From NCBI RefSeq assembly GCF_019635935.1, contig NZ_JAHBYN010000001.1, positions 1,671,501-1,735,500 of the forward strand: a stretch of 64,000 nucleotides of DNA, given 5' to 3'. Positions 4,854 to 15,223 of this stretch are shown here, piece after piece; the first letter of the stretch is position 1; every line of letters begins with the position of its first letter. A model generated the notes under the pieces. That model did no database searches. It saw only the letters and a program-made list of their open reading frames with translations, and was not told where the DNA came from. Origin of the DNA: Parvibaculum sp. Its GTDB lineage: Bacteria; Pseudomonadota; Alphaproteobacteria; Parvibaculales; Parvibaculaceae. A program made the translations under genes and the position numbers.

Positions 4854-5165
4854 TTAAGCGCAATAGATGTCTTTCAGGGTTTTGAGAATCCGGGCCGCGT
4901 CGGGATCGTCGATCCGGTAGTAGACGGTCTGGGCGTGCCGGCGCGTGGCGACGAGGCCGTCCTCGCGCAGCTTCGCCAGATGCTGCGAGAGCGCCGACAT
5001 GCCGAGATCGGCTTCGGCCGCGAGCTCGCCGACGCTCGCCTCGCCTTTCACCGCCAGCGCACACAGCACCAGCAGTCGCTTTTCATTGGCGAGCAGGCGC
5101 AGCATCCGCGCCGCCTCGCCGGCGCTTTCGGCGAGCTTCGAAATATCGCTTTTCATCATCCGCAT
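4854..5165 (-). CDS. bigR: BigR/SqrR-like ArsR-family persulfide-sensing repressor
   Basis: A 103-residue winged-helix protein with the ArsR core (MLRLLANEKRLLVLCAL, then MSALSQHLAKLREDGLVATRR, then TVYYRI). It has only two cysteines, C35 in LLVLCAL and C102 at the end in DIYCA, 67 residues apart. BigR and SqrR have the same pair at nearly the same spacing, and there a per- or polysulfide bridge between the two releases DNA. No metal-binding CxC motif of classical ArsR is present. GGAGG lies 8 bases before the ATG at 5165. It is predicted to repress both its own run and the divergent dioxygenase gene through the operator at 5191-5220. Confidence 0.88.
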   Translation of the reverse strand: MRMMKSDISKLAESAGEAARMLRLLANEKRLLVLCALAVKGEASVGELAAEADLGMSALSQHLAKLREDGLVATRRHAQTVYYRIDDPDAARILKTLKDIYCA

Positions 5166-5190
5166 CGTCCGGCCTCCGGCCCTGTGACGT

Positions 5191-5220
5191 TTTAGCTCTT
5201 GCTAAATTAGTGATTGCTAA
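5191..5220. promoter_or_regulatory. Twin inverted-repeat operator between bigR and the persulfide dioxygenase gene
   Basis: TTTAGC-tctt-GCTAAA (5191-5206) is a perfect palindrome and abuts TTAG-tgattg-CTAA (5207-5220). This AT-rich pair stands out in GC-rich surroundings. It lies 26 bases upstream of the regulator and 68 bases upstream of the divergent gene, as expected for an ArsR-family operator that controls both directions. BigR boxes described in other proteobacteria are likewise AT-rich and palindromic. Confidence 0.75.
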
Positions 5221-5287
5221 TATATATGTCAAGAGACGAACGGGTCCGAGGCGAAAGCCGGGCCGGAAACGAAGAAGGAGAACCCCC

Positions 5288-6178
5288 ATGAACAACGCAA
5301 AAAAGCCGGAAATACAGGGCTTTTTCGACGAGGCCACCAATACGGTGAGCTATCTGGTGGTCGATCCGGCGAGCCGCGCCGCCGCCTTTGTCGATCCGGT
5401 GCTCGATTTCGACCCGAAATCGGGCAAGGTTTCGACCGCGAGCGCCGACAGGCTGCTGGCCGCCGCCGAAAAGGCGAAGGCGCGGATCGAATGGATCCTC
5501 GAAACCCATGCCCATGCCGACCATCTGTCGGCCGCGCAATATCTGAAAGCGAAAACGGGCGCGAAAATCGGTATCGGCGCACAGATCAACGATGTGCAGA
5601 AAATCTTCACGCCGGTCTTCAACCAGAACGGCCCGACCGACGGCCGCGAATTCGACCACCTGTTCAAGGAGGGCGAGCGCTTTCACATCGGCGAGTTGAC
5701 GGTGGAGGTCATCGCGACGCCGGGGCATACGCCGGCCTGCATCAGCTACAAGGTGGACGACGCGGTTTTCGTCGGCGACACGCTCTTCATGCCCGACTAC
5801 GGCACGGCACGCGCCGACTTCCCCGGCGGCGACGCGCGCACGCTTTATCGCTCGATCCAGAAGCTGCTGGCACTGCCGCCCGAGACGCGGCTCTTCATGT
5901 GCCACGACTACAAGCCGGAGGGCCGCGACAACTATGTGTGGGAAACGACGGTGGGCGAACAGCGCGCCGCAAACATCCATGTCCATGAAGGCGTGGGCGA
6001 AGCGAGCTTCGTCGCCATGCGCGAAAAGCGCGACGCGACGCTGGCGGCCCCTGTGCTGCTCTTGCCCTCGATCCAGGTCAATATCCGCGCCGGCCACGTG
6101 CCGCCGGCCGAAGACAACGGCAAGCGCTACCTGAAAATCCCGCTGACGGTACCGGCGGAAGCAGAGGAGAGCCTTTAG
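5288..6178 (+). CDS. blh: Persulfide dioxygenase (ETHE1/Blh-like metallo-beta-lactamase fold)
   Basis: 296 residues of the ETHE1/Blh branch. It oxidises glutathione persulfide with O2 to sulfite and GSH in sulfide detoxification. The metal motif is H74-A-H76-A-D78-H79 (THAHADHLSAA), followed by GHTPACISY, the bridging Asp in VFVGDTLF and a later His in FMCHDYKPEGR. The second part, with TVGEQRAANIHV, matches Blh-type proteins. The ATG at 5288 follows GAAGAAGGAG. It is divergent from bigR and shares its operator; rhodanese and exporter lie on the other arm. Together they form a sulfide to persulfide to sulfite/thiosulfate to export route. Confidence 0.92.
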   Translation: MNNAKKPEIQGFFDEATNTVSYLVVDPASRAAAFVDPVLDFDPKSGKVSTASADRLLAAAEKAKARIEWILETHAHADHLSAAQYLKAKTGAKIGIGAQINDVQKIFTPVFNQNGPTDGREFDHLFKEGERFHIGELTVEVIATPGHTPACISYKVDDAVFVGDTLFMPDYGTARADFPGGDARTLYRSIQKLLALPPETRLFMCHDYKPEGRDNYVWETTVGEQRAANIHVHEGVGEASFVAMREKRDATLAAPVLLLPSIQVNIRAGHVPPAEDNGKRYLKIPLTVPAEAEESL

Positions 6179-6188
6179 GGCTCTCCTC
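6164..6188. terminator. Hairpin overlapping the blh stop codon
   Basis: A 10-bp perfect stem GAGGAGAGCC/GGCTCTCCTC with a 5-base loop includes the blh stop codon in the loop. Only a weak T/C-rich tract follows. It sits in the 37-bp gap between two convergent genes and probably serves both. Confidence 0.6.
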
Positions 6189-6215
6189 CACCTTTTCCCC
6201 CTCGGAAGTAGCCCC

Positions 6216-9200
6216 TCAGAAGCGAACGCTGAGCTGCGCGTTCAGACCGTGGTCCTTTGCATCGGAACCGTATTCGCCGGCATAGCCGAACGAGAGTACG
6301 GTGCGCGGACCGAGCGTCAGGCCGATACCGGCCTCAACCGCGAGCGCATTTTTCGAGATCGGCGCACCCTGAACGGTGAAGCTGGTGGCGGGCGCCGAGG
6401 CAAAGGCCGCACGCGACGACGGGTCGACATCGCCGAAAGCATGACGCCAGGCGAGCGAACCGGTGAGCGCGAAGGCATCGCTTTCGCGGCGGCCGCGCAG
6501 GCCGAGTGTTGAAATGCCGGTCGTGTTGCTGGAGCCGGCGACCGTGAGCGCCGCCGGACCGCCGGTCTCGGTGAAGCCATCGGTCTCGACATGAACAACC
6601 GCCAGTCCGGCAAAGGGCGTGAACACCACCGGGCCGCGCGCAAGGTCGGTGCCGATTTCGGCGGCGGCCTGCATGACATGGGCGTCGTAGTCCGCCTTCA
6701 GGCGGTTGGTGATGCCGCCGACAACGACGGTGCGATCGGTATCCGCCTGCTGATAGGCATAGGCAAGCGTGCCCCCGAGATCGACCGCGCCGAGCTTTGC
6801 GCCGGCATAGCCGGCGATGTGGAAGTTGTCGCTCGCGCCCGATGAGGCGAGCGTATCGACATCGAAGGTGGAGCGGCTGTAGCCGAGCGCAACGCCGATG
6901 CGGGCATTGTCGCCGACCGCCTTGTCGGCACCGCCGAGAAAGCCCGACGCCGTGCGGTCGAGCGCCGCCGTTTTGCTGTTGGCGTCGGTTTTGCCCCAGG
7001 CGCCGAAGACGTGGCCCCAAAGCGTCGTGTCGCCGCCGGGCCGGCCGTCGCCGGCCGCGGGCGCCTGAGCAAGCGCCGCCGACCCTGTGCCGCCGCCGAT
7101 GAGGCCCTGAAGCCGCGCGAACAGCAGATCGCGGATTTGCTGCGCGGTAAGGAGAAACGACGTCGAGGCGCCGGCATGTGCCTCACCCGACAGCGCATCG
7201 AAGGCGGCACGCGCCTCTTCCTCCGTCATCGACAATATTTCGTCGTAGAGCACATTGCCCGCGCCCAGCCCCTGCACAGCGCCAGCGACATTGAACTGGT
7301 TGGGCGTAAGCGCCGCCTCCTGGAAGTCCGCCGCAAGGTCAAGCGTCAGGAAGACCGTGTTGACGTCGTAGGTGAGCGTCGGCGACAGGAAGGCGAAGTT
7401 GGACGTCACGCCGTCGAAAGTGCCGACGACATCGTTGGCGGTGAGGATCGTATAGAGCGTGCTTGCCGCATAGTCGCCCGCTCCGGCGAAGACGCGCACC
7501 GTGCCGCCGTTGATCGTTGCCTCGTTGTCGACCTGAAGCAGATCGCTGTTGCCGTCCGCATCCACCTCGACATCGAAGAAGGTGCCGGCGGCGAAGGTGA
7601 CATTGTCGGCCTGCAGGGTGCCGATCGAATTGCCGGGCGCGACCGCGCCGCCGATCATCACATTGATCGAACCGGTGACGGTGCCGCTGCCGCCGAGTGT
7701 GCCGTCGCCGGACACCGAAACGTCGGGCAGGACGCCATTGACCAGCAATGCGCCCTCCTGAACCGAGGCGCCGCCGGTCAGCGTATTGATGCCCGAGAGG
7801 ATCAATATGCCGGTGCCGGTCTTGGTCAGCGAACCGCCGATGCCCGAAATGACGCCCGAAACCTCGGTCGATTGGTTGTTGCCGCCGACGACAAGTTCCT
7901 TGCCGAGCCCGAGCGTGAAATCGCCGGCGCCGGCGATCGAACCGACTTCGAGGCTCCCCGCCACAAGATTTTCAGTCGTGAAGATACCGCCGGCCTCGAC
8001 GATGAACTGCGCCGTGCCGCCCGTCGCCGCGTTGCGGAAATCGACCGTGCCGCCATTTGTCGTTGTGATGACGGCATCGCCCGCCGAAGACGTATCGCGG
8101 AAGAAGAGATCGCCTCCATTCTCGATTTCGGCGCTGCCGGCCGTGGAGCTTTGGGCAAATTCGGCCATGCTGTTGTTGACGATGACGGCGGTGCCGCCGC
8201 TGGCCGCGTCGCCGAAAGTCAGAACATCGTTGTTTTCGATGCTCGCCTCATCCGCCGAACTGTCGTCCCTGAAGTGGAGACCGCCATTGTTGATGAAGCT
8301 GGCGCTGCCCGCCGTCGATGAATTGTAGAAGCGCGTGCTGCCATCGACGGTGTTGGTGATTTCGGCGGTGCCGGCCGTCGAATTGTCCTCAAAGTCGATA
8401 TAGCCGCCGACCTGGACGATCGCCGAACCGGCGCTCGAAAAGCTGCGGAAATAGAGTTCGGCATAGTTGACGCCGTTGCCCTGGACGTCGATGTCGGCAT
8501 CGCCGGCCGAACCGTCATCGTCGAAGACGCCCGTCGCGCCGTGCTCGAAGATCAGCTCGGCGGTACCGGCAATCGCTCTGGAAATGAAGTTGAGGACGCC
8601 GCCATTGCGGGTCGTGATCGTGGCGTCGCCCGCGGTGCTGTCGCCCTCGAAATTGACTTCGCCCGAATTGTCGATCTCGGACGTGGCGGCCGTGGCATCG
8701 TTTGAGAAATTGAGCTCGCCATCAACGGCGATGTCGGAGGTGCCGGCGGTCGCATTGTCCCGGAAATACGTCGTGCTGCCGGCCTGAAGCGTCAGCGAAG
8801 CGTCGCCCGCGCTGGCGTCCTCGGCGAAGTTCAGCGTGACGGTATTGTCGATCGCAGCCGTGCCGCCGGTGCTGCTGCCGTTGAACACCATGTAGCCGTC
8901 ATTGGTGATGGTGGACGCGCCGGCGCTTGAGTCGCCGTAGAAAAGCAGCGAGCCGAGCGCGGTGTTGACGATGGTGGCATTGCCGGCGGTCGAGGTTTCG
9001 TCGAATTCGAGCACATTTTCGTTGCTGAACGAGCCGCCACCGGCCGAGCTGCTATCCTGGAAGATGACGAACCCCAGAATGTTGAATTGCGTGTCGGTGC
9101 CGGCGGTCGAGTCGTTGCGGAAGCCGATGCCGGTGCTCAGACCCGTCGCGATGTTGAAAGTCTGCGTCTGGACGCCATTGTTGACGATGCCGTCGCCGTC

Positions 9201-9527
9201 GAAAAAGAACCGGGCGCTCGCATTCAGATTGATGGTGAAGGCATCCGACGGGTTGCCGAAGGTGATGCTGTCGAGCGTATGAACGCCGTTGACGCCGATG
9301 GTGGTCTCGCTCGAATTTCCGAAGGTGACTGCGCCATCGGGAACGCTCGGACTGCTCGACCAGTTGGCGCCCGAATTCCAGCTTCCCGTCCCGGGATTGG
9401 CGAGCCATTGCCCGTCGACCGCGAGCGCCGGTCCCGACATCAGCGCCAGCACCGCTGTGGTTGCCATCAACATGCCGCGCCGGTTGCACCGCGACGCCGC
9501 CATTTGCCGTTCGACCGTCTTGCCCAT
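6216..9527 (-). CDS. Large autotransporter adhesin with tandem coil repeats
   Basis: 1103 residues. An extended N-region and signal peptide end near ALMSGPALA (about residue 36). Residues of roughly 110-490 hold 19 degenerate units of 19-21 residues (one about 24) of the form F-x-D/N-x-S-S/T-A-G-x-A-x-I-x-N-x-G-x-L. These should form successive beta-helix rungs. Next comes an autotransporter-associated strand repeat (SLTKTGTGILILSG...GALLVNG). A C-terminal barrel of about 280 residues (LWGHVFGAWG onward) ends in the expected aromatic residue, LSVRF. It would be surface-exposed, for adhesion or biofilm. No protease triad is visible. The ribosome-binding site of the first ATG is weak. A HTH-hydrolase gene lies upstream on the same strand. 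Confidence 0.9.
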   Translation of the reverse strand: MGKTVERQMAASRCNRRGMLMATTAVLALMSGPALAVDGQWLANPGTGSWNSGANWSSSPSVPDGAVTFGNSSETTIGVNGVHTLDSITFGNPSDAFTINLNASARFFFDGDGIVNNGVQTQTFNIATGLSTGIGFRNDSTAGTDTQFNILGFVIFQDSSSAGGGSFSNENVLEFDETSTAGNATIVNTALGSLLFYGDSSAGASTITNDGYMVFNGSSTGGTAAIDNTVTLNFAEDASAGDASLTLQAGSTTYFRDNATAGTSDIAVDGELNFSNDATAATSEIDNSGEVNFEGDSTAGDATITTRNGGVLNFISRAIAGTAELIFEHGATGVFDDDGSAGDADIDVQGNGVNYAELYFRSFSSAGSAIVQVGGYIDFEDNSTAGTAEITNTVDGSTRFYNSSTAGSASFINNGGLHFRDDSSADEASIENNDVLTFGDAASGGTAVIVNNSMAEFAQSSTAGSAEIENGGDLFFRDTSSAGDAVITTTNGGTVDFRNAATGGTAQFIVEAGGIFTTENLVAGSLEVGSIAGAGDFTLGLGKELVVGGNNQSTEVSGVISGIGGSLTKTGTGILILSGINTLTGGASVQEGALLVNGVLPDVSVSGDGTLGGSGTVTGSINVMIGGAVAPGNSIGTLQADNVTFAAGTFFDVEVDADGNSDLLQVDNEATINGGTVRVFAGAGDYAASTLYTILTANDVVGTFDGVTSNFAFLSPTLTYDVNTVFLTLDLAADFQEAALTPNQFNVAGAVQGLGAGNVLYDEILSMTEEEARAAFDALSGEAHAGASTSFLLTAQQIRDLLFARLQGLIGGGTGSAALAQAPAAGDGRPGGDTTLWGHVFGAWGKTDANSKTAALDRTASGFLGGADKAVGDNARIGVALGYSRSTFDVDTLASSGASDNFHIAGYAGAKLGAVDLGGTLAYAYQQADTDRTVVVGGITNRLKADYDAHVMQAAAEIGTDLARGPVVFTPFAGLAVVHVETDGFTETGGPAALTVAGSSNTTGISTLGLRGRRESDAFALTGSLAWRHAFGDVDPSSRAAFASAPATSFTVQGAPISKNALAVEAGIGLTLGPRTVLSFGYAGEYGSDAKDHGLNAQLSVRF
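6900..8400 (-). other. Junction of autotransporter passenger repeats and barrel domain
   Basis: Within the autotransporter gene, the repeat-coding DNA (upstream part, about 8.0-9.2 kb on this strand) gives way to the strand-repeat segment near 7.8 kb and to the barrel-coding part below about 7.05 kb. Boundaries are approximate and read from the translated sequence. Confidence 0.4.
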
Positions 9528-9618
9528 CTTTCACAACCCCCACCAGCCGCGCGGGCGCGACAGGCGCCCGCTCACGGAAATTTCGATGGGCGGATTAAGG
9601 ACCGGGAGCGGCAAGGCC

Positions 9619-9642
9619 CGCATACCCCGGATGGGGTATGCG
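9619..9642. promoter_or_regulatory. Perfect 10-bp-arm palindrome upstream of the autotransporter
   Basis: The sequence CGCATACCCC-ggat-GGGGTATGCG is a perfect inverted repeat with a 4-base spacer. It is 92-115 bases upstream of the autotransporter start and 27 bases beyond the end of the HTH-hydrolase gene on the same strand. No T run follows in either direction, so an operator is more likely than a terminator. The LuxR-type HTH of the neighbouring gene is an obvious candidate ligand. Confidence 0.5.
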
Positions 9643-9668: not shown

Positions 9669-11405
9669 TCAGGGTGCCCGGAGCGCGGATTCCAGCCGGT
9701 CGAGCACGAGTTCGGGCCGGGCGAAGAAGATGAGCTGCCCGGCATCCGCGACCTCATGCAGCGCGACATTGGCGTAGCGGCCGGCGAAATCGCGCACCGA
9801 CCAGACCGGCACCGCCGGATCGTGCGGCCCGTGCAGCAGCGTCACCGGCTGGGTGACGGGCGCCACATACCGGCTCCAGTCCTGCATCAACAGCCGGGCG
9901 TCGATCTCGAAGGCCTTGTAGCCCTGCGCCACCATGAAGTCGTAACCGTCGCTCAAATGCGGCAGCACATCGCCGCGCTGTGCGACCGGCCAGTCGGCGA
10001 CGGCGCTTTCGTAAAGCGCCTTCATGAAGGCGTGATGGCCACCGCTGTCGATCAGCGCCACGGCCGCGCGCAGGATCAGCCGCGAGAAGCGCGGCGCATA
10101 TTTCGTCGTATAGGCGACAATGCGCTGGCGCGGCGCCAATGCCGATATCTGCGCGCCGGACGTGACCGGCACCGTGCCCGAAACGTTGAGAATATGCGGG
10201 ATGCGCGATCCCATGCGCGCCGCGATCGCATAGGCATAAAGCGCGCCGCTGAGATGGCCGAGCACCGGACAGCGCGCAATGCCGAGATGATCGAGCAGCG
10301 CCTCGGCATCGGCGGCGAAACGGTCCGGCGCGCCTTCCGCCTCGCCGTCATGATCCGACCCGCCAAAACCCGGACGCGCCGGGACGATGAGACTGATGTT
10401 GCGCGCAACAAGCGCCTCGCGGTTGAAGAGCGGCGCCGCATAGCCGTCGAGCATGCCGTGGACGAAGAGCACCGGCCGGCCCTGCGGTGCGCCGATCCGC
10501 GTGTAGACAAGCTTGCGCGGCCCGCGCCGCAATATGTCGAACAGCGCCGAAGCCCGCCGGCCGCGCGCCATGATGCGGCCCTCGCCGCCCATGTCGAACT
10601 GCGCCAGCGCCGCCGTCATGCGGATCAGCTCACCCTGCGAATGCGCTTCGGTCTTGCGCAGCACGGCCTTCATCTGTGTTCGAACCGTTTCGATGGAGCT
10701 CTTGCGCGCATCGGCGATGTCGCGCGCCGAGGCGCCCGCCATCAACGCGCGGGCGATGTCGCATTCGGCCTCGCTGAGCCCGAACGCCTGACGCAGCACG
10801 GCGCCGATGCGGTCATTCCAGGCAAGGTCGGCGACGCTGAGTAGACCGAGCGGCGCATCGCCCTCGCGCACCGGCGCGCATGTCAGCGCAACGATGAAGG
10901 CCGAACCGTCGCGCGCCGAAAAGGCACGCGCCACCGCCAGCAGCCGCCCCGGCGGCTCGGCGCCCATCCGCGACAGCGCCTCGCGGATCTGGCGCATGCC
11001 GTCGGCATCGACTGGCAATGCGTCGAGCGATTGTCCGGCGGAGGCGGCGAAGAGTTCGGCGGCGGCGGCGTTGGCCGCGGCGACGCGCCCGCTCGCGGCG
11101 AGCAGCATGGCGGGACGGGGATCGGCATCGACCAGTGCCTCGATCGGACGCCGGTCCTCGAGCGGCCGGCCGAGGCGTTCGAGAATGGTGAAGGCATTGA
11201 GAAAATGGCGTTCGATTTCGTCGCGGTCGGACGGCGCCCGTCCCTCGGTTTCCGGCCCGTCGAGTTCGCGGATGGCGTCGGCGATATGCCGCTCCCAGGC
11301 GGCCATCAACTCGTCGTAACGGCCGGGTTCGAGCACCGTCGCATAGACCTGATCGACCAGCCCCGCCGGCTCGCCGGCCGGCACGTCGCCCCCCGAAACC
11401 TTCAT
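9669..11405 (-). CDS. LuxR-type HTH fused to an alpha/beta-hydrolase domain with a lost catalytic His
   Basis: 578 residues. Residues about 85-195 look PAS-like (ALVDADPRPAMLLAASGRVAAANAAAAELF). Residues 208-262 are a LuxR-type HTH (FGLSEAECDIARALMAGASARDIA...SIETVRTQMKAVLRKT). From 300 onward lies an alpha/beta-hydrolase fold with VLFVHGMLDGY, a nucleophile elbow G-H-L-S386-G and an acid-like D529 in HGPHDP. Where active relatives have AGHLIFF, this protein reads AGQLIFF, so the catalytic His is Q557. The domain may bind a ligand rather than hydrolyse it, acting as a sensor for the HTH. The ATG at 11405 follows GGGGG; an upstream GTG is weaker. Confidence 0.85.
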   Translation of the reverse strand: MKVSGGDVPAGEPAGLVDQVYATVLEPGRYDELMAAWERHIADAIRELDGPETEGRAPSDRDEIERHFLNAFTILERLGRPLEDRRPIEALVDADPRPAMLLAASGRVAAANAAAAELFAASAGQSLDALPVDADGMRQIREALSRMGAEPPGRLLAVARAFSARDGSAFIVALTCAPVREGDAPLGLLSVADLAWNDRIGAVLRQAFGLSEAECDIARALMAGASARDIADARKSSIETVRTQMKAVLRKTEAHSQGELIRMTAALAQFDMGGEGRIMARGRRASALFDILRRGPRKLVYTRIGAPQGRPVLFVHGMLDGYAAPLFNREALVARNISLIVPARPGFGGSDHDGEAEGAPDRFAADAEALLDHLGIARCPVLGHLSGALYAYAIAARMGSRIPHILNVSGTVPVTSGAQISALAPRQRIVAYTTKYAPRFSRLILRAAVALIDSGGHHAFMKALYESAVADWPVAQRGDVLPHLSDGYDFMVAQGYKAFEIDARLLMQDWSRYVAPVTQPVTLLHGPHDPAVPVWSVRDFAGRYANVALHEVADAGQLIFFARPELVLDRLESALRAP

Positions 11406-11491
11406 CGCCGTACCCCCGACGCACGGCACTCCGGCCGGCCAGGCGGGATGCTACGCCATCCCCGGAAGACCGGCCATTGGCAAATTCACCC

Positions 11492-12940: not shown

Positions 12941-13102
12941 CGAACCCCCGTTTGCGGGCCGCCGGGGCCCTTCGCCGCATCCGCCCCGCCCGGCTGGCCG
13001 GACGGGGGTGTTCGAGATATATAGACATCGAGAGGGCGGCGCCATGCCGCCGAACCCGCCGCTTCCCGCCTTTTTACACAGTCATCGAGACGAGTTCACC
13101 CC

Positions 13103-14812
13103 ATGAGCCCTGCCGAAAGCGCCGCCGCCAAATCGCCCGCCCGACCCGGAGAGGCGCTGCAACGCGCCGACCTGCTGGCGCTGACGCCGCAAGCCGTCGA
13201 CGACGCCGACGCGCTGCTGGCGAAGGCGCGGGCGTCGGTCTTCGCGCTGGTGGCGAAGGACGGCAAGGTCTCGGCTGCAGCGATCGAGCGCGAGCAATTC
13301 GCGGTGCATGGCTTCGCCTGGATGGCAACCTATGTGGAAGCCTTGCGCCAGATGGCGGCCTATGCCGCGCGCATGAGCGGCGAGAAGCGCCTCGGCGAGT
13401 TCGAGGCGCTGCTGGTGCAGGCCGCCTTCGGCGAATATCTGAACCAGCTTGCGGGCGGCATTCCGATGAGCCAGGGCGAGACGGTGCGTCCCGCCGATCT
13501 CGGGCTGACGGAGGAAGATGTCGCTACATTTCGTGCCGCGCCGGCGGTGCGCCGGCTCGCAAGCGCCGGCTTCACGACGGCGGTGCGCGCGCGGCTGGCC
13601 GAGCTGATCGCCGCCAATGCCGGCGCCGCGACCTTTGGCGATACGGGGCTCGAAGAAACCTACGACGCGATCCGCGACCAGATGCGCCGCTTCGCCGATG
13701 CCGAAGTGATCCCGCACGCGCATGAGTGGCACCTGAAGGACGACTACATCCCGATGCCGGTGGTCAAGCAGATGGCCGAACTCGGCGTCTTCGGGCTGAC
13801 GATCCCGGAAGAATTCGGCGGCCTCGGCCTCGGCAAGGAATCGATGTGCGTCGTCTCCGAGGAATTGTCGCGCGGTTACATCGGCGTCGGCTCGCTCGGC
13901 ACGCGTTCGGAAATCGCCGCCGAACTCATTCTCGGCGGCGGCACGAAGGAACAGAAAGACAAATGGCTGCCGAAGATCGCGAGCGGCGAAGTGCTGCCGA
14001 CGGCGGTCTTCACCGAACCGAACACCGGCTCCGACCTCGCGAGCCTGCGCACCCGCGGGAAGCGCGAGGGCGACGTCTACAAGATCAACGGCAACAAGAC
14101 CTGGATCACCCATGCGGCGCGCGCGGACGTGATGACGCTGCTCTGCCGCACCAACGACGCGCCGGGCTACAAGGGCCTGTCGATGCTGCTGGCGGAAAAG
14201 CCGCGCGGCGACGACGCCGATCCCTTTCCGGCGAAGGGCATGTCGGGCGGCGAAATCGAGGTGCTCGGCTATCGCGGCATGAAGGAATTCGAGATCGGCT
14301 TCGACGATTTCGAAGTGAAGGCCGAAAACCTCTTGGGCGGCGAGGAAGGTCAGGGCTTCAAGCAATTGATGCAGACCTTCGAAAGCGCCCGCATCCAGAC
14401 CGCGGCGCGCGCCGTCGGCGTCGCGCAATCGGCGCTGGAACTCGGTTTGCGCTATGCGCAGGAGCGCATCCAGTTCGGCAAGCCGATCTACGATTTCCCG
14501 CGCGTCAACGGCAAGCTGGTGACGATGGCCGTCGAGATCATGGTGGCGCGCCAGCTCACTTATTTTGCGGCACGCGAGAAGGATGGCGGCAGACGTTGCG
14601 ACCTCGAAGCGGGCATGGCCAAGCTGCTGGCGGCGCGCATCGCCTGGGCGGCGGCCGACAACGCCCTGCAAATCCATGGCGGCAACGGTTTCGCGCTCGA
14701 ATATCCGGTGAGCCGTGTGCTCTGCGACGCACGCATTTTGAACATTTTCGAGGGCGCCGCCGAAATCCAGGCGCAAGTGATTGCCCGCCGCCTGCTCGAA
14801 GGCGGCAACTGA
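13103..14812 (+). CDS. mcd: (2S)-Methylsuccinyl-CoA dehydrogenase
   Basis: 569 residues. The acyl-CoA dehydrogenase core starts near residue 180 (YDAIRDQMRRFADAEVIPHAHEWHL) and is preceded by a long extra N-terminal helical domain (FALVAKDGKVSAAAIEREQF...AYAARMSGEKRLGEFEALL). That extension and length are characteristic of Mcd, which oxidises (2S)-methylsuccinyl-CoA to mesaconyl-CoA in the ethylmalonyl-CoA pathway. Core motifs include LPTAVFTEPNTGSDLASL, KTWITHAARAD, QFGKPIYDFPRVN and ALQIHGGNGFALEYPV. ccr in the same window supports the assignment. Its 3' end overlaps the first unit of a three-fold 31-bp repeat. Confidence 0.92.
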   Translation: MSPAESAAAKSPARPGEALQRADLLALTPQAVDDADALLAKARASVFALVAKDGKVSAAAIEREQFAVHGFAWMATYVEALRQMAAYAARMSGEKRLGEFEALLVQAAFGEYLNQLAGGIPMSQGETVRPADLGLTEEDVATFRAAPAVRRLASAGFTTAVRARLAELIAANAGAATFGDTGLEETYDAIRDQMRRFADAEVIPHAHEWHLKDDYIPMPVVKQMAELGVFGLTIPEEFGGLGLGKESMCVVSEELSRGYIGVGSLGTRSEIAAELILGGGTKEQKDKWLPKIASGEVLPTAVFTEPNTGSDLASLRTRGKREGDVYKINGNKTWITHAARADVMTLLCRTNDAPGYKGLSMLLAEKPRGDDADPFPAKGMSGGEIEVLGYRGMKEFEIGFDDFEVKAENLLGGEEGQGFKQLMQTFESARIQTAARAVGVAQSALELGLRYAQERIQFGKPIYDFPRVNGKLVTMAVEIMVARQLTYFAAREKDGGRRCDLEAGMAKLLAARIAWAAADNALQIHGGNGFALEYPVSRVLCDARILNIFEGAAEIQAQVIARRLLEGGN

Positions 14813-14871
14813 AAAATGCCGCCTGCTTGAAGGCGGCAACTGAGAAATTCCGCCTGCTCGAAGGCGGCAAC
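14787..14871 (+). repeat. Three tandem 31-bp hairpin units at the 3' end of mcd
   Basis: CGCCTGCT recurs at 14789, 14820 and 14851, giving an exact period of 31 bases. Each unit has a 6-7 bp stem (GCCGCCT/AGGCGGC in the first two) with a 6-base loop, followed by AACTGA or a variant. The first unit encodes the last Mcd residues (RLLEGGN, stop). The next two are non-coding copies that end just before the ribosome-binding site of the small membrane gene at 14885. Confidence 0.85.
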
Positions 14872-14884
14872 CAGGAACACAACC

Positions 14885-15079
14885 ATGTCTGAATTCGTCG
14901 TTACCTGGCTGGCGCCGATCGCGCTGATCGCGGTGCTGGCGGTCTTGCTGGCCGGCCTGTGGAACATGATGCGCGGCGGCTCGGCCAACCGCTCGCAACT
15001 GCTGATGCGCTGGCGCGTCGGCCTGCAGTTTCTGGCCGTTATCGTCATCATGCTGGGGCTTTATCTCGCCAACCGGTGA
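14885..15079 (+). CDS. Small twin-transmembrane protein, HIG1-like
   Basis: 64 residues with two membrane segments (about 6-26 and 45-62) around a short basic loop, GGSANRSQLLMRWRVGLQ. This loop and second helix resemble the HIG1 domain and the small twin-transmembrane proteins common next to cobalamin adenosyltransferase or etf genes in Hyphomicrobiales. HIG1 proteins are linked to respiratory-complex assembly or oxygen response; the function of this one is not known. CAGGA lies 9 bases before the ATG. It follows mcd and the 31-bp repeats. Confidence 0.8.
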   Translation: MSEFVVTWLAPIALIAVLAVLLAGLWNMMRGGSANRSQLLMRWRVGLQFLAVIVIMLGLYLANR

Positions 15080-15223
15080 GTACCCCTTGTTAACCAAAAA
15101 CCGACGCTTGCCTGCCACAATCGCGTATATTCGCGCCAGGAGACGCATTCAGATCGTCGCGAGCGCCGCGGACATCCTGTAGGATTGCTTGGCGACCGGG
15201 GGTCTTAGATCAGGGGTTTCATC

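Follow-up and report, generated by a model that had tools for sequence, protein, structure and literature searches.

The protein analysed here, a 578-residue regulator from Parvibaculum sp., joins a LuxR-type helix-turn-helix (HTH) to an alpha/beta-hydrolase domain from which the catalytic triad has been lost, and it appears to belong to a large and conserved clade of pseudo-hydrolase regulators. On balance, we favor the reading that it is a one-component regulator whose former hydrolase domain would serve as a non-catalytic sensor and which would switch the autotransporter encoded next to it. The regulator gene (P0001) occupies positions 9669..11405 on the minus strand of the window, that is, the whole 64,000-nucleotide stretch that we analyzed, as one open frame encoding a PAS-like N-terminus, a LuxR-type HTH and the pseudo-hydrolase domain. 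Its start codon is the ATG at 11405, where the orthologues keep ATG or GTG, and an in-frame GTG lies upstream of it at 11429.

The GerE/LuxR HTH (approximately residues 210–263; 10617..10778, minus strand) matched Pfam with an E-value of 5.3e-7 (29.6 bits against a cut-off of 23.5), and the hydrolase domain (approximately residues 312–569; 9699..10472, minus strand), matched both Abhydrolase_6 (E 1.4e-10; 42.6 bits against 26.3) and Abhydrolase_1 (E 1.5e-8; 35.0 bits against 25.8). The initial annotation of this DNA, which had described an HTH regulator fused to an alpha/beta-hydrolase, was therefore correct on this point, with all three matches over their cut-offs in a single frame. The N-terminal region that resembles a PAS or MmyB-type ligand-binding domain (approximately residues 90–185; 10851..11138, minus strand) matched weakly, as PAS_9 (E=0.0056) and MLTR_LBD (E=0.0051), both under the Pfam gathering score, and no autoinducer-binding domain was found in the N-terminus among Pfam matches up to E=0.01. 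A structure prediction of the hydrolase domain from five near-identical sequences reached a mean pLDDT of 35. We also considered a phage-defence protein and rejected it, as PADLOC gave only a weak match at the level of the HTH.

Active serine alpha/beta hydrolases carry a Ser-Asp-His triad, which is absent from the regulator. The nucleophile elbow reads G383-H384-L385-S386-G387, such that the middle residue of the G-x-Nuc-x-G motif is Leu385 (codon 10251..10253, minus strand). In ungapped HMMER alignments this residue falls on the Ser of 9wlv and on the Asp of the epoxide hydrolase 9c2g, and a profile alignment to 9wlv likewise places it at the nucleophile. As a control, we aligned 27 free-standing hydrolases from the same genome, and all 27 have Ser or Asp at column 385. 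The ungapped alignments and this control rule out Ser386, which the initial annotation had taken to be a nucleophile in place. Its other two assignments hold: Asp529 (codon 9819..9821, minus strand) retains the catalytic acid position within HGPHDPAVP, and the catalytic His column is occupied by Gln557 (codon 9735..9737, minus strand; AGQLIFF), giving AGQ for the usual AGH. The proposed loss of the catalytic His is thus real and yet understated, since the Ser has gone as well; the layout is L-D-Q in place of S-D-H, with two of the three catalytic residues missing. H550, the alternative base proposed earlier, was dismissed as a candidate because one of the five orthologues has Arg at this position. 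We consider it very probable, judging from these residues, that the regulator is no serine hydrolase, and we strongly infer that its hydrolase domain would act without hydrolysis.

The regulator is present in 5 of 27 Parvibaculum genomes, the orthologues in the other four being 91–97% identical to it, and close matches in the named genome collection came only from three Parvibaculum metagenome-assembled genomes (MAGs) and one MAG named Alphaproteobacteria bacterium. All five Parvibaculum orthologues have an open frame and keep L-D-Q. Pairwise NG86 averages over these orthologues gave dN/dS values of 0.02 for the HTH, ~0.15 for the PAS-like region and 0.12 for the hydrolase domain, within which the cap, at 0.04, is the most constrained part. 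Every domain is hence under purifying selection, and values of about 0.12, 0.04 and 0.02 indicate a gene that is maintained, not decaying.

Searches over about 1,700 genome slots, in which some genomes occurred more than once, yielded 151 non-redundant HTH-hydrolase fusions. A tree computed without the triad columns, in which long branches meet in places, split them into the deep clade A (112 rows; SH-aLRT 99) and its sister, clade B (39 rows). The regulator lies within clade A and has the features that define it, namely HTH and hydrolase in one chain without S-D-H. Whereas none of the 112 clade A proteins sampled has S-D-H, 19 of the 39 clade B proteins do, and the remainder of clade B have lost the triad in part and sporadically; because the latest searches used a profile derived from clade A, and the large searches scored few candidates per genome, these proportions are not population estimates. 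At the catalytic His column of clade A, Gln is the commonest residue (68 of 112, against 7 His and 37 others), and the conservation of Gln at position 557 thus extends from all five orthologues to the majority of the clade. The nucleophile column is varied (G, Q, L, M, A, D, S, T and others). A Gln at the His column goes together with a non-Ser nucleophile position, as Ser is found there in only 1 of the 68 Gln members. Parsimony on the tree counted 10 changes between Ser and not Ser and 9 between His and not His; triad residues have therefore changed many times, in a direction that the counts do not give.

Conservation peculiar to clade A is seen in or near the cap and the old active site, at P413, R428, G456, F460, D509 and W510. 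R428 is conserved in 91% of clade A versus 41% of clade B, W510 in 88% versus 41%, and D509 in 84% versus 23%. This pattern would fit the retention of a pocket or an interface. The HTH residues L210, E214, T240 and K251 are conserved throughout the family.

Clade B fusions share the architecture of the regulator and are homologous to it over the full length, including a paralogue in the same genome (G000:C1:1286406-1288205); they differ in that 19 of 39, this paralogue among them, keep the triad. Several Parvibaculum genomes carry tandem pairs of clade B genes in which an S-D-H regulator has a neighbor with A-D-H, that is, an Ala at the nucleophile position, so that an apparent enzyme adjoins a pseudo-enzyme (5155-6915 and 6990-8825 of locus L161 in G013; similar pairs in G015, G020 and G024). 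Within clade A, a branch comprising L037, L055, L209, L213 and relatives (family f139) has a Gln nucleophile and a Cys acid (Q-C-A or Q-C-S), a loss that is different from the other triad losses and as conserved as they are. Another small clade A branch, formed by L008 and L306, the latter from the Ruegeria sp. TM1040 megaplasmid, has D-D-H, with an Asp nucleophile as in dehalogenases and epoxide hydrolases, and may represent an active regulator-enzyme fusion. More generally, relatives encoded on alphaproteobacterial plasmids (Ruegeria TM1040, Paracoccus, Aliiroseovarius, Agrobacterium) are homologous over the full or nearly the full length; NCBI names them 'alpha/beta fold hydrolase' or 'LuxR C-terminal-related transcriptional regulator', with the loss of the triad unremarked, and among the five examined none has S-D-H and one has D-D-H. 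The suggestion that such a protein might be undescribed stands insofar as we found no paper on the HTH-hydrolase fusion in the open-access literature, which is weak evidence of novelty; the family itself is not unique to this locus.

In all five genomes the regulator gene is adjoined, as the initial annotation had noted for this locus, by a gene for a 1103-residue autotransporter (6216..9527, minus strand), whose repetitive passenger gave no peptidase match. The two genes lie on the same strand, 141 nt apart, and form a cassette. In the studied genome TrkH is followed by the regulator, the autotransporter and an ETHE1-like gene, in this order. G032 and G033 have the first three of these genes, and G018, whose locus is divided between contigs, has the last three. 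In G034 the pair is found at another site, with autotransporters on both flanks of the regulator. Since the pair stays together across the five genomes, including the different site in G034, we conclude that regulator and autotransporter are co-inherited. The position after TrkH looks like an insertion hot spot, since its content differs between Parvibaculum species: in place of the cassette, a small toxin-antitoxin-like gene pair separates TrkH from ETHE1 in the regulator-less G013 (L119 6513-7737), and the regulator-less G023 has a single SnoaL-like gene after TrkH (L120 5370-6351). A 688-residue protein encoded at 13082-15148, without a Pfam or NCBIfam match, adjoins TrkH in nearly all Parvibaculum genomes examined.

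Between the regulator stop codon and the autotransporter start lies the palindrome that had been noticed earlier; we confirmed it as a 24-bp element with perfect arms, CGCATACCCC-ATCC-GGGGTATGCG, at 9619..9642. It occurs once per genome and is identical at 24 of 24 positions in all five regulator-bearing genomes, and the 22 Parvibaculum genomes without the regulator lack it, save for a site with two mismatches in G020. Intergenic columns outside it are 63% invariant; assuming independence of columns, an invariant run of 24 anywhere in the gap would arise by chance with a probability of ~0.001. Neither a second copy elsewhere in the genome, for instance near the regulator's own start, nor a sigma-70-like promoter near the palindrome was found, which speaks against our preferred model. 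As a single-copy element it was discarded as a genome-wide regulon site. The autotransporter's presumed 5′ leader contains a second stem-loop (9551..9571, minus strand), in which three G-U changes and one two-sided change among the five species leave every pair intact.

These features make the palindrome a candidate operator or a candidate RNA hairpin. We tentatively take the former option, in which it would be the operator of the regulator and the autotransporter its target, without being confident of it; our confidence in DNA binding at this site and in control of the autotransporter is lower than in the absence of catalysis or in ligand binding. The latter option, that the palindrome folds in the autotransporter mRNA for processing, termination or leader control and that the two genes merely share an operon and ancestry, seems to us somewhat less likely. 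It gains from the arrangement of both genes on one strand with a short gap, from a leader that folds better than shuffled sequences (z = -2.1) and from the neighboring stem that keeps its pairing despite changes. On the other hand, the palindrome has no U-tract (T-run), which eliminates an intrinsic terminator, and its 4-nt loop is as unchanged as its arms, which a plain hairpin would not predict. Moreover, LuxR-type HTH dimers usually bind inverted repeats.

Elsewhere in clade A, most loci have housekeeping neighbors, and we dropped a link to surface genes as a family-wide rule. Adhesin, pilus or von Willebrand factor A (VWA) neighbors do recur in several distant lineages. VWA or OmpA-PAN proteins adjoin clade A genes in G280 and G701 and lie two genes off in G059 and G1068; large RTX or two-partner-secretion proteins adjoin them in G966, G981 and G1009, and an RTX protein in G1074. 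A CS1-type usher stands beside clade A genes in G155 and G1121, which belong to two families, and each of these loci holds two regulator paralogues; these paralogous pseudo-hydrolase regulators adjoin the usher of a CS1-type chaperone-usher pilus (L273 4962-11240 in G1121; L021 7919-11620 in G155), and G1121 also has a row of small secreted pilin-like genes. Of the plasmid records, those of Ruegeria TM1040, Pseudosulfitobacter and Agrobacterium RAC06 have VWA proteins encoded in the vicinity of the gene; the Aliiroseovarius record has a Hint-domain protein there, but that of Paracoccus has no neighbor of either kind. Surface classes account for 12 of 371 neighbors within two genes versus 0 of 540 at greater distances (Fisher p 2e-5). 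This comparison is limited by the choice of the classes, made once the neighbors had been seen, by the non-independence of related loci and by the truncation of distant genes where a stretch ends. The earlier idea of a ligand-sensing switch for surface adhesion thus fits the cassette and palindrome of Parvibaculum and the recurrent surface neighbors, but it does not extend to the family as a whole.

Our working model is as follows. A small ligand, perhaps an ester, a lactone or a similar hydrophobic molecule, would occupy the pocket of the former active site, beneath the cap and close to Leu385, Asp529 and Gln557, where it would be bound and not hydrolysed. The cap would then move, such that the attached LuxR-type HTH dimer binds DNA differently, and the likely target in Parvibaculum would be the conserved palindrome that lies a short way upstream of the autotransporter inherited with the regulator; the ligand would in this way turn a surface adhesin on or off. 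That the hydrolase domain senses a small molecule is, in our judgment, reasonably probable, and by analogy with receptors of the GID1 type we place moderate confidence in ligand binding.

Other readings of the domain fare less well. It could have become a dimerisation or protein-interaction module, with the signal entering through the PAS-like N-terminus: neuroligins and NDRG proteins have alpha/beta-hydrolase folds and act through protein contacts, the residues at 385 and 557 differ widely across the clade, and there is the weak PAS-like match to receive a signal. We regard this as unlikely, because the conservation specific to the clade is concentrated in the cap and the surroundings of the former active site, and because the cap is the tightest part of the hydrolase domain when the PAS-like region is looser. 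Still less likely is an enzyme of unusual chemistry that works without the Ser-His pair, in which case the regulator would also turn over its ligand. Some enzymes of this fold do operate without a Ser nucleophile, and the D-D-H branch (L008 and the Ruegeria TM1040 plasmid protein) has an intact Asp-nucleophile layout; the regulator and its four orthologues, however, have neither nucleophile nor His, and the variable H550 would be a poor stand-in. Finally, the triad may have been lost by chance or in a degenerating gene that no longer needs the domain. The patchy occurrence among Parvibaculum genomes is what such a gene would show, but the selection on all domains contradicts it, as do the frames, open in every orthologue, and a loss that is clade-wide with a common replacement residue; we give it hardly any credence. 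A non-catalytic, ligand-binding sensor therefore remains our preferred reading of the domain.

The hydrolase-derived hormone receptors of plants make one ask how an enzyme can turn into a receptor. In the fusions described here a single architecture, even within one genome, comes with the triad intact, partly lost or fully lost, and the read-out from protein to promoter is short, so that the transition from enzyme to receptor becomes testable in bacteria. The family suggests that old enzymes have repeatedly been converted to signal receptors. Their ligands are possibly new bacterial signals, and many of the proteins that carry the annotation 'alpha/beta hydrolase' are probably regulators unable to hydrolyse. 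More broadly, and with some reserve, we put forward that clade A may be a large undescribed class of bacterial one-component receptors, widespread in Alphaproteobacteria and descended from alpha/beta hydrolases, in which the triad was lost and the active site turned into a ligand pocket, often with Gln for His; it could be a directly DNA-binding bacterial counterpart of the plant receptors, controlling surface adhesins or pili in several lineages.

How does the regulator compare with known systems? With the GerE/LuxR-type one-component regulators (PF00196) it shares the HTH, matched over the Pfam cut-off, but this HTH lies mid-chain instead of at the C-terminus, and the putative sensor is a C-terminal pseudo-hydrolase. 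It is not a LuxR regulator of the acyl-homoserine lactone type, as the autoinducer-binding domain was not found. The receptors D14/DAD2 and KAI2, together with bacterial RsbQ, are likewise hydrolase-fold signal receptors but have no HTH fusion, and D14/DAD2 keep the triad intact and hydrolyse the ligand (PMC3531792). A close parallel is GID1, the plant gibberellin receptor from the hormone-sensitive-lipase branch of alpha/beta hydrolases, in which the hydrolase fold has become a non-catalytic receptor and the catalytic His has been lost (PMC3531792). A likeness to such plant receptors had been proposed at the outset, and the comparison is a fair one: the domain is best read as non-catalytic and receptor-like, and the His is lost in both proteins. 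It ends at the nucleophile: GID1 keeps Ser and Asp, which contact gibberellin, whereas the regulator has lost the Ser and so falls outside a GID1-type definition. GID1 also has no DNA-binding domain, while the regulator would bind DNA itself, and the two are likely of independent origin.
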